Source of the DNA: Pseudomonas maioricensis
GTDB taxonomy: Bacteria > Pseudomonadota > Gammaproteobacteria > Pseudomonadales > Pseudomonadaceae
Length of the DNA stretch: 64,000 bases
Direction of reading: 5' to 3'
NCBI RefSeq assembly: GCF_022790535.1
Contig: NZ_LOHG01000002.1
Coordinates: forward strand, 1 to 64,000
A model generated the notes under the pieces. That model searched no databases and had not been told where the DNA came from. It was given only the letters and a program-made list of their open reading frames with translations. Positions 15,047 to 19,769 of this stretch are shown here, one piece after another. The translations under genes were made by a program, and so were the position numbers. The stretch's first letter is position 1. The number at the start of each line of letters is the position of its first letter.

Positions 15047-15115
15047 TCAGGCGCGCCAACGCCAGCGGGCGTGAGCCTTGATAACGCGCATCAAGAGTTT
15101 GCTGACGATCAACAC
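15047..15115 (-). CDS. Putative Trp leader peptide upstream of trpG
   Basis: Short frame from GTG 15115 (22 residues, [22 protein letters not shown]); an internal ATG at 15091 would give 14 residues. It ends with two Trp codons separated by one Arg codon. It aligns along its whole length with the C-terminus of Gph ([17 protein letters not shown]), including 27 identical bases at 15044-15070. It probably stalls ribosomes when charged tRNA-Trp is scarce. Attenuation of trpE and trpGDC has been reported in P. putida, as I recall. No strong ribosome site is seen (GAG about 9 bases before the GTG). It was too short for routine gene calling. Confidence 0.6.
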
Positions 15116-15361
15116 AGGGGAGGTCTCGTTTCCACGTCCCGGCACATTAGCGTACCGGGGGATGGCGTGCAATATCACATAACCTGTGCAATACGATCAA
15201 AATCTACTTTCCGAGTCACGAAACAATCAAATCTGTAAAGCCGCGGATACACATCAACCATAACGCCAACCGCCGGGCGGTTAATGACCATTTAACCGGG
15301 CGCGCAGGGTTCAGCTAGCTACTTTTCCTTAATCATTAAAAAAACAAAAAGGAACCTGACC

Positions 15362-17400: not shown

Positions 17401-18876
17401 TTACTGCTCCTGCTCAGCCAGCGCCACAGCGCGGAACATCGCCCGGCGTTTGTTCAGGGTTTCTTCCCATTCCAGTGCTGGCACCGAGTCAGCGACGATG
17501 CCGCCACCGGCCTGCACGTGCAGCTCGCCGTTCTTGATCACGGCGGTACGGATCGCAATCGCAGTGTCCATGTTGCCGTTCCAGGCCAGATAACCCACCG
17601 CGCCGCCGTAGACGCCACGCTTGACCGGCTCAAGCTCGTCGATGATTTCCATGGCGCGGATCTTTGGTGCACCGGACAAAGTACCTGCTGGCAGAATCGC
17701 CCGCAGAGCATCCATCGCGGTCAGCCCGCTCTTCAGTTGGCCAGTGACGTTGGACACGATGTGCATCACGTTCGAGTAACGCTCGATGACCATTTTTTCC
17801 GTGAGTCGGACAGAACCGATTTCCGAAACACGACCGGTGTCGTTACGCCCCAGATCGATCAGCATCAAGTGCTCGGCGATTTCCTTGTCATCCGACAGCA
17901 GGTCTTTTTCTAGTGCCACATCCGCTTCTTCATTGGCACCGCGAGGACGCGTACCGGCGATCGGGCGAACGGTAATCAGGTTGTCTTCAACCCGAACCAA
18001 TACTTCCGGCGAACTGCCAACGACATGGAAGTCGCCAAAATTGAAGAAGTACATGTAAGGCGTCGGGTTAAAGCAGCGCAGCGCCCGGTACAGATCAATC
18101 GGCGCGGCTTTGAAATCGATGGACATCCGCTGCGACGGAACCACCTGCATGACGTCGCCCGCCAGGATGTACTCCTTGATGGTATCAACTGCCCGCTCGT
18201 AGTCGTCCTGAGTAAAGCTGGAGCGAAACACCGGATCAGCCGCTTGCGGCCGGGTCAGGTCCAGGCCACGACGCGGGGTGATCGGCTGACGCAGTTTCTC
18301 CATCAGCTCATCCAGACGCGCCAGACCGCTTTCATAAGCGTCCTGCTGTGCCGGATCGACCAGCACGATAGCGTGCATCTTGCCCGCGAGGTTATCGAAC
18401 ACCACGACGGCATCCGAAACCATCAGCAGGATGTCAGGCACGCCCAGCGGATCCGGATTCGGACATTTGCCGAGACGCTTCTCGACATAGCGAACACAGT
18501 CATAACCGAAGTACCCCACCAGCCCGCCGTTGAAACGTGGCAGGCCAGGAATGGTCGGTACGTTGTAACGCGCCTTGAAAGTTTCGACGAATGCGAGCGG
18601 GTCTTCGGTCTCAAGATGCTCGATCTCGACGCCGTCGTGAGTGACCCGAACATCGTGATCGTGAACGCGCAAAACGGTACGGCACGGCAAACCGATGATC
18701 GAGTAACGGCCCCATTTCTCGCCGCCCTGCACCGACTCCAGCAGATAGGAGTTCGGTTGGTCGGCAAGCTTGAGGTAGATCGACAGCGGCGTGTCAAAGT
18801 CGGCCAGGGTTTCGTAGGCCAACGGGATACGGTTGTAGCCAGCAGCAGCCAAACGCAGGAATTCTTCGCGATTCAT
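17401..18876 (-). CDS. trpE: Anthranilate synthase component I
   Basis: Converts chorismate to anthranilate with ammonia from TrpG; feedback inhibited by Trp in the family. The second of two adjacent ATGs (18876, 491 residues) is chosen because GAGG lies 6 bases upstream of it. The N-terminal regulatory domain includes [15 protein letters not shown]. The C-terminal chorismate-binding domain has [20 protein letters not shown] and the [17 protein letters not shown] end. It follows gph by only 71 bases, and the end of gph encodes a Trp-rich tail that may act as its leader. Confidence 0.96.
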
Positions 18877-18950
18877 CATCAGCCTCGTGGGTGAGGGTTA
18901 GCAGTCAGGTAAGCAAACGGTGCCGGATGTCGTGTCCAGCGGGAATCAAG

Positions 18951-18995
18951 TCAGGCGCGCCAACGCCAGCGGGCCAAGGCCTTGATGACTTTCAT
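18951..18995 (-). promoter_or_regulatory. Putative trpE leader peptide inside the gph 3' end
   Basis: The last 14 codons of gph ([14 protein letters not shown] then stop) form a Trp-codon run just before trpE. The same peptide tail occurs in a free-standing frame upstream of trpG. Ribosomes finishing gph, or starting at the internal ATG, could sense Trp-tRNA and control trpE. No canonical terminator was found in the 71-base gap. Confidence 0.5.
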
Positions 18996-19769
18996 CCAGA
19001 GTTTGCGAGTGACCACCACGATGGAATCTCTAAAGGAAGGATCTTTGATTTCCGGCAACAGTATCCCAGCGTCCAGATCCAGGCAACCGGGAATCAGACG
19101 CCGCAGGTCATCAATGACCAGCGCCGGGGACTCTTCTTCAATCGGTCGACCATGGTTGTAGCCGTAGCTCATGGCGACGCAAGACACGCCAGCAGCCTTG
19201 GCGGCCTGCACATCACTGCGTGAGTCGCCGACGAACAGCGATTGTGAGGCCGGAATATTGGTCATTTTCATGACAAAAAACAGCGCCGCCGGATCAGGCT
19301 TCTTCGTTGGCATGGTGTCGCCACCAATGATCAGACGGAAAAAGCGGCCCAGCTTCATCTCATCCAGCAGAGGCGCAACAAAGCGCTCCGGCTTGTTAGT
19401 GATCAGCGCCATCTCGACGCCCATCTTCTGCAACCATTTCAGGGTTTCGCGAACACCGGGGTAGACCGCCGTGAACTCATGCTTTTCGGCATAGAACTTC
19501 ATGAAGATTTCCAGCGCCTGCTCGGCCTCAGCATCATCGACACCGCTGTGGTCCAGATCATTGGCCAGAGCACGGCGTACCAGAACGGGCGCACCGTTGC
19601 CAATCCAGTTCCGGACCTGCGCCAATCCGGCCGCGGGACGGCCCAGTTCGAGCAGCATTTTGTCCACAGCAACGGCCAGATCGGGTACCGAGTCCACCAG
19701 TGTGCCGTCCAGATCAAACATGATCAGCTTGGGCAGTCGCCCTGGAAACAGTTGCTCGAAGCCGCTCAT
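18951..19769 (-). CDS. gph: Phosphoglycolate phosphatase
   Basis: HAD-superfamily phosphatase that removes 2-phosphoglycolate arising from DNA repair. The 272 residues include the HAD nucleophile motif [11 protein letters not shown] at about 17-27, ALITNKPE (motif II) and [16 protein letters not shown] (motif IV). Its start overlaps the rpe stop by 4 bases. Oddly, the final 20 residues, after the HAD fold, are basic and Trp-rich ([17 protein letters not shown]). They match the putative trpG leader peptide, which suggests the tail is kept for its RNA or translation role rather than for catalysis. Confidence 0.95.

Follow-up and report, generated by a model that had tools for sequence, protein, structure and literature searches.

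The gph–trpE locus

The window, by which we mean the whole stretch of 64,000 nucleotides of Pseudomonas maioricensis that was analyzed, carries on its minus strand the genes rpe, gph (19769-18951), and trpE (ATG at 18879/18876), with trpG, trpD, and trpC farther on. Gph and TrpE were identified with a family library; rpe, trpG, trpD, and trpC bear names given by recognition. Two neighboring ATG codons of trpE lie 71 and 74 nt past the gph stop codon, the second being favored because of its spacing from a GAGG motif. The final 17 codons of gph (19004-18954, followed by the stop codon at 18953-18951) include three TGG codons (18998-18996, 18968-18966, and 18962-18960), as had been read in an earlier note proposing that this tail doubles as a Trp leader peptide for trpE. 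That note also spoke of the same peptide in a free-standing leader ahead of trpG, and we indeed find there an ORF (15115-15047) that is identical to the gph tail over a stretch of 26 nt. At the Rfam gathering score, the window matches one tRNA only. The elements discussed below are the following, all on the minus strand:

18951..19769, minus strand: gph (phosphoglycolate phosphatase), fused form; 272 aa, with the HAD core at about residues 1-226
17401..18879, minus strand: trpE, anthranilate synthase component I, by family match; ATG at 18879, or at 18876 judging by spacing
18951..19019, minus strand: trpE leader ORF; GTG start at 19019, 22 codons, same frame as gph
19081..19086, minus strand: −35-like TTGCCT; includes gph codon 229 TGC (19085-19083), where some unfused relatives have the gph stop TGA
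19058..19063, minus strand: −10-like TACTGT; 17-bp spacer to the −35, weak by consensus
19027..19031, minus strand: weak SD-like AGAGA ahead of the leader GTG, from the SD-letter count
18996..18998, minus strand: first Trp codon of the leader (W8), 2 nt past the P1a 5′ strand
18960..18968, minus strand: TGG-CGT-TGG (W18, R19, W20), from the sequence
19001..19006, minus strand: P1a 5′ strand GCAAAC, predicted pairing
18913..18918, minus strand: P1a 3′ strand GUUUGC, predicted pairing
19016..19021, minus strand: P1c 5′ strand UCGUGG, predicted pairing; covers the leader start codon
18885..18890, minus strand: P1c 3′ strand CCACGA, predicted pairing; overlaps the trpE SD (GAGG 18886-18883)
18922..18940, minus strand: P2 hairpin past the leader stop, predicted fold
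15047..15115, minus strand: trpG leader, free-standing GTG-start ORF
15144..15172, minus strand: promoter-like TTGCAC-17-TAATGT ahead of the trpG leader, by inspection

The trpE leader in fused and free loci

We call a locus fused when the gph frame continues to the leader stop codon, and free when gph stops earlier and the leader ORF comes after it. The free-standing trpE leader, present in Azotobacter, Stutzerimonas, P. mendocina, and others, is an ORF of 22-27 codons with a GTG start located between gph and trpE, and such ORFs occupy any frame (25, 40, and 43 among the 108 free loci with a start). The exact leader pattern retrieved at least 120 named contigs; among the 120 matches listed, 57 are fused, 60 are free, and 3 lack gph at the locus. 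The fused state is seen, among these listed matches, in P. putida, P. entomophila, P. mosselii, P. viridiflava, P. citronellolis, P. nitroreducens, P. thermotolerans, and others, and the free state in Stutzerimonas, Azotobacter, P. mendocina, P. oryzihabitans, P. indica, P. straminea, and others; the P. putida strain L200 belongs to the fused group. A search of 398 genus genomes reported a 23-nt core (with at most 3 mismatches) in 383, a figure that counts at least L032 and L034, in which the match is an unrelated 3-mismatch site only; the reversed core, used as a control, gave a single match in each of about ten of the 398. Gph was found in 14 of the 15 genomes lacking the core, never with the tail in frame: at 13 of these loci the leader is free and its end has diverged to RWRWRL, and at the remaining one gph is truncated. 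When 139 genus genomes were sampled evenly, 138 contained gph, and 117 of the genes align to residue 271-272 without a stop codon. The 21 others do not, and inspection of all of them revealed a free leader in each.

The leader keeps to trpE. Where gph and trpE are separated by 0.9-2.7 kb (G413, G438, G429, G450, and G414), it adjoins trpE and not gph, and a check for Trp-bearing Gph tails away from trpE, suggested in the earlier note, came out in favor of the leader proposal: none of 15 fetched loci having gph without trpE carries the WRW motif at gph (about 1.5 kb downstream covered; one gph truncated). The leader thus has the form of a small ORF in which Trp codons cluster, adjoining a trp gene and conserved along with it. 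Exceptions are five family-level loci with trpE beside gph (L057, L134, L146, L148, and L151), where no WRW leader was detected, so that the leader is not universal. In the 94 fused loci, which were found via the motif, Trp accounts for 16% of the last 17 residues against 1.2% of the Gph core, and 192 of 202 leaders have a Trp at positions 6-14. Judged from these comparisons, the putative trpE leader is a gene of its own, placed between gph and trpE in most Pseudomonadaceae examined, and we consider it highly probable that the gph tail acts as the Trp leader of trpE. The region, including its promoter and this tiny leader gene, probably lets trpE sense tryptophan. The earlier proposal stands to the extent that the tail behaves in comparison as a trpE leader; what lacks support, in the form proposed, is that sensing belongs primarily to the peptide as a C-terminus of Gph.

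A leader-like ORF ending in RWRWRA (end STTLLIKAFARWRWRA) was seen near a contig end in L104 and L130 (contig C44 of G398). In L304 (G050, contamination 9%), two gph-leader segments flank a partial trpE, probably as an artefact of assembly or contamination. Three loci named Pantoea sp. or uncultured Massilia (L170, L266, and L208) have a Pseudomonas-type gph-leader-trpE arrangement and are probably mislabelled.

The leader promoter motif and the gph stop codon

A TTGnnn and TAnnnT pair separated by 16-18 bp precedes the leader in all 37 fused loci and in 56 of the 57 free ones, compared with 3.6% of shuffled sequences and 2 of 507 Gph-core windows used as controls. In the window, this motif is TTGCCT (19086-19081), a 17-bp spacer, and TACTGT (19063-19058), with 7 of 12 consensus letters, so that a stricter scan with a threshold of 9/12 lists no promoter there; the leader transcript would start at about 19050. 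We extended the analysis to 204 loci (94 fused and 110 free, with order-level loci left out). The spacer is of 17 bp in all 94 fused loci and in 89 of the free ones, the others having no such spacer (19) or no GTG start (2). All 94 fused loci read TGC as the gph codon in the −35, and in 11 of the 89 free loci with the 17-bp motif the gph stop codon TGA starts one base into the −35 (T-TGA-TT). In 35 of the same 89 loci, the gph stop codon, TAG or TAA, provides the first three bases of the −10, thus doubling as promoter sequence. Some free-leader genomes (L126 and L129) carry short tandem repeats, such as CTTGCAG units, between gph and the leader promoter.

The simplest reading of these states, based on the relatives, is that a gph stop codon TGA within the −35 changed to TGC in the fused lineage, so that promoter, start codon, and leader would have come to be read as a Gph tail. 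The linker codons that are fixed wherever the residue is kept (GGT 33/33, TGC 37/37, ATA 26/26, and TTG 26/26) lie within the promoter motif. The SD of the leader counts 3 letters in 91 and 4 letters in 3 of the 94 fused loci; among the in-frame GTG and ATG codons of the Gph core, 51% have at least 3 SD letters and 9.3% at least 4. The putative leader has a conserved promoter motif that is weak by consensus, a weak SD-like site, and a GTG start of its own. If our reading is correct, living intermediate states show how a complete regulatory unit, made up of a promoter, a start codon, and a leader peptide, became enzyme-coding by the loss of one stop codon in a promoter hexamer.

History of the fusion

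In a Gph+TrpE tree of 104 loci with order-level outgroups, the 37 fused loci lie on one side of a single branch (SH-aLRT 98). Larger trees require 3 (204 loci), 4 (99 loci, no outgroup), or 6 (135 loci) changes between the fused and free states, the last number being reduced to 3 when four loci that lost the fusion by indel count with the fused lineage. Order-level loci were left out of the 204-locus tree, as well as of the P1c pairing analysis and the ribosome-position profile described below; the 99-locus tree is without L229, L234, L270, L138, L131, and near-identical rows, and the 135-locus tree without L057, L134, and L304. With 99 loci, a topology in which the fused rows and L235 form a single clade was not rejected by an AU test (p 0.33). 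The trees are no proof, but a single origin of the fusion is likely, within a Pseudomonas lineage that includes P. putida, P. entomophila, P. viridiflava, and P. citronellolis, and the shared TGC codon supports it.

The fusion was lost at least three times, in L235 (P. alcaligenes MB-090714), L286, and L287/L288, each time by an apparent indel nested inside a supported group of fused loci in the 135-locus tree, and each time with the GTG and the leader intact. A link from Gph translation to trpE is therefore not essential. This goes against the earlier note, which had tied trpE control to Gph translation: the leader has a promoter motif and a GTG of its own, is free in relatives, and persists intact in the loci that lost the fusion. 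We hold the history of the gph-leader fusion, as read here, with high confidence.

Predicted RNA pairing upstream of trpE

In the minimum-energy fold of the window leader, GCAAAC (19006-19001) pairs with GUUUGC (18918-18913) past the Trp codons, the stop codon, and the hairpin; the fold as a whole has a z-score of only −0.87. At the place of this helix, P1a, the best match is GCAAAC-GUUUGC-like in 73 of 86 loci and of another kind in 13. Its two strands change together, as in CACACAC/GUGUGUG (4 loci), GCACAG/CUGUGC (3 loci), and UGCAAGC/GCUUGCA (2 loci), and in two A+T-rich relatives AAAAACACAUUU pairs with AAAUGUGUUUUU, forming an unrelated 12-bp helix in place of P1a. Native strands were then compared with strands swapped between representatives, which were picked by hand for the trpE lineages and by a distance rule for trpG. 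In the 25 hand-picked trpE representatives, P1a reaches −10.8 kcal/mol with native against −8.8 kcal/mol with swapped strands (0 of 20000 permutations), and the pairing of the leader start with the trpE RBS likewise differs between native and swapped strands (28 of 20000). No significant pairing emerged for the middle segment, P1b (2592 of 20000). When pairs were counted in 42 loci on a fixed alignment, 78.6% of cells were paired (4 of 500 shuffles), with 16 of 500 for double-change pairs and 33 of 500 for the covariation score; slid versions of the alignment give equal double changes, and this column-based count lends modest support only. Its weakness comes in part from shifts of the 3′ strand between aligned rows.

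Several other pairings were examined and rejected. Neither the WRW codons (11477 of 20000 permutations) nor codons 9-15 (13559 of 20000) co-evolve with downstream RNA, and P1-like pairing is absent from the trpG leaders (11205 and 6534 of 20000; n=11). A pairing of the leader CGCGCC with the 3′ arm of P2 was dropped on inspection, because leaders ending in RWRWRL lack CGCGCC.

We also calculated the cost of opening the trpE RBS as a function of the position of a ribosome on the leader, with an assumed footprint of 18 nt upstream of the A-site codon and 13 nt from the A-site codon downstream, on which the figures depend. For the 54 of 86 loci with 22-codon leaders, this cost is 7.5-8.0 kcal/mol as long as the ribosome sits within codons 2-8, goes up to 9.2 at codon 9, lies at 8.7-8.9 over codons 10-13, and is at least 9.4 from codon 14 on; it is 9.8 kcal/mol at W18 and W20, 10.1 at the stop codon, and 9.8 for the naked RNA. 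The cost rises from about 8 to 9.3 kcal/mol directly past codon 8 in 20 loci with 27-codon leaders, and remains near 7-8 through codon 13, codon 7 excepted, in the leader of the window itself. The trpG leaders (31 loci) have a similar profile at codons 3-11 without any Trp codon there, which is why the ribosome-position profile alone is not counted. A swap control is stronger evidence, and on average both it and the profile agree with a stall at W8. In 18 hand-picked loci, the RBS gain with a ribosome at codon 8 is 2.69 kcal/mol for native leaders versus 1.39 for chimeras (6 of 20000 permutations), the native gain lying under the swapped mean in 4 of the 18, and the cost for the naked RBS is 10.37 kcal/mol in native versus 9.10 in swapped combinations (38 of 20000).

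These results suggest a mechanism in which the 5′ half of the leader mRNA, from the start codon to codon 7, would pair with the RNA just upstream of trpE, including part of its ribosome site. Stalling at Trp codon 8 or close to it would place a ribosome over this 5′ half and free trpE translation; with plentiful tryptophan, the ribosome would move on and the pairing would close. Codons W18 and W20, which are common to trpG, get no role in this model unless ribosomes queue behind them, and genus g5 keeps P1a without W8. Our confidence in this RNA mechanism of trpE control is moderate. The best explanation for the locus as a whole, a Trp leader with its own promoter that was captured through the loss of the gph stop codon and that operates an RBS sequestration switch at W8, seems to us somewhat on the probable side of even. 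The suggestion in the earlier note that the mechanism may be translational points in the better-supported direction, although with the leader 5′ half sequestering the trpE ribosome site and not with coupling from Gph to trpE. It offers a specific RNA mechanism for the control of trpE in Pseudomonas, where no terminator was found that could explain the reported attenuation.

Possible transcription attenuation and the trpG leader

A different possibility is that the ribosome on the leader decides on premature termination of transcription before trpE, the WRW codons being the sensor in both trpE and trpG. We find this less probable than not. The WRW pair precedes trpE and trpG alike, its invariance being partly built in because the loci were found by that motif, and C exceeds G past the leader stop in 33 of 33 trpG and 88 of 90 trpE leaders, versus 4 of 90 Gph cores. 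The 2001 study by Olekhnovich and Gussin reports, by its title, attenuation of these genes, trpE and trpGDC, for P. putida. At the trpGDC leader of P. aeruginosa, a published map places premature 3′ ends beside a potential GTG-start uORF (PMC8297930). By contrast, a simple scan lists no terminator between either leader and its gene, in agreement with the earlier note, and the hairpin past the leader stop in the window is followed by ACCGUUUGC and no U-tract; since no U-tract terminator was seen, such termination would probably be Rho-dependent. An intrinsic terminator with a U-tract combined with an alternative antiterminator was not found at the trpE leader, the WRW codons have no co-evolving pairing with the region past the stop codon, and termination leaves the co-evolving P1 strands at the trpE RBS unexplained.

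The trpG leader was obtained in 33 of 39 stretches (the others are without trpG or the motif in the stretch, two of them being trpE loci; the distances to the trpG starts, which were placed one base off, are approximate). It has no W8, and 11 representatives gave no sign of a pairing that co-evolves with the trpG RBS; trpG may therefore be controlled differently.

Constraint on the fused tail

We then considered whether the fusion itself is functional, that is, whether on mRNAs started at gph the ribosomes finishing Gph act as Trp sensors, with the Gph and trpE outputs linked and the frame kept by selection. In that case, the C-terminus of an enzyme would have been a regulatory leader ever since a stop-to-Cys change in a −35 box. 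The fusion is open in 117 of the 139 sampled genus genomes, and the distance from the −10 to the leader start, which falls in all three frames in free loci, is only 38, 41, or 44 nt in fused ones and so stays in frame. Among 60 fused loci of equal linker length, 347 parsimony changes include 0 stop gains against 8.7-9.5 expected, but these loci were chosen as fused, which excludes losses by definition, and the test rests on the known losses being indels and not stop gains. The leader frame of fused loci thus appears to be mostly, not strictly, kept open. Against such dual coding stand the losses by indel that left the leader intact, the promoter motif and start codon of the leader itself, and the disorder predicted for the Gph tail; we consider it rather doubtful.

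The tail differs from the rest of Gph in its divergence. In 118 close pairs of fused genes, drawn from 64 loci of 272 codons, synonymous differences per site amount to 0.272 for the core, 0.090 for the linker, and 0.055 for the leader; the corresponding non-synonymous values are 0.026, 0.036, and 0.003. Codon entropy averages 0.39 at 9 conserved degenerate leader codons versus 0.99 at 125 core codons, and the leader value lies under that of every 9-codon core window (minimum 0.56). General Gph models end at residue 225-228 (PGP_bact at 225) and AlphaFold2 gives pLDDT below 50 at residues 233-261 and 263-272, confirming the claim of the earlier note that the HAD fold ends before the tail; the tail is predicted to be disordered, with a weak helix at 256-271. 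That the tail is a plain part of Gph conserved for enzymatic reasons, as the curated family PRK13223 (NCBIfam NF009698) would have it since its 272 positions match Gph residues 1-272, is very improbable given that the tail is missing from the Gph of free-leader relatives and at gph in 15 loci without trpE, that its synonymous sites are constrained to the degree just mentioned, and that nearly the same peptide occurs ahead of trpG. As a protein segment, it is probably a by-product, and by spanning 272 positions PRK13223 takes a probable regulatory leader as enzyme.

Relation to known systems

The captured leader that we favor shares with the trpL-type attenuators of Escherichia coli a short ORF that groups several Trp codons ahead of a trp gene and is free-standing in many relatives, but differs from them in that no U-tract terminator or antiterminator was found and that the ORF is nested in frame in an upstream enzyme gene. 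With translational attenuation of the ermC type, it has in common a stalled ribosome proposed to open a sequestered ribosome site, the proposed signal being here the lack of charged tRNA-Trp and not a drug. As in the rph-pyrE and frdD-ampC overlaps of E. coli, the control elements of a gene lie in, or adjoin, the 3′ end of its upstream neighbor; to our knowledge, neither of these has an amino-acid leader peptide as the C-terminus of the upstream enzyme. The attenuation named in the title of the 2001 P. putida study concerns the same genes, and a P. putida strain belongs to the fused group. Among the titles, abstract openings, and passages of PMC2965389 that we consulted in the open-access literature, there was no report of the gph-trpE leader fusion, which the 2001 study may mention.

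In other families of the order, variants of the WRW pair precede trpE, namely RWWRWRTG, RWRWRW, KRWRW, and CWRW. The trpE leaders of three order-level loci (L068, L069, and L077) end in RWRWRW. The amide RWRWRW-amide is a synthetic antimicrobial peptide, and the likeness is probably a coincidence.
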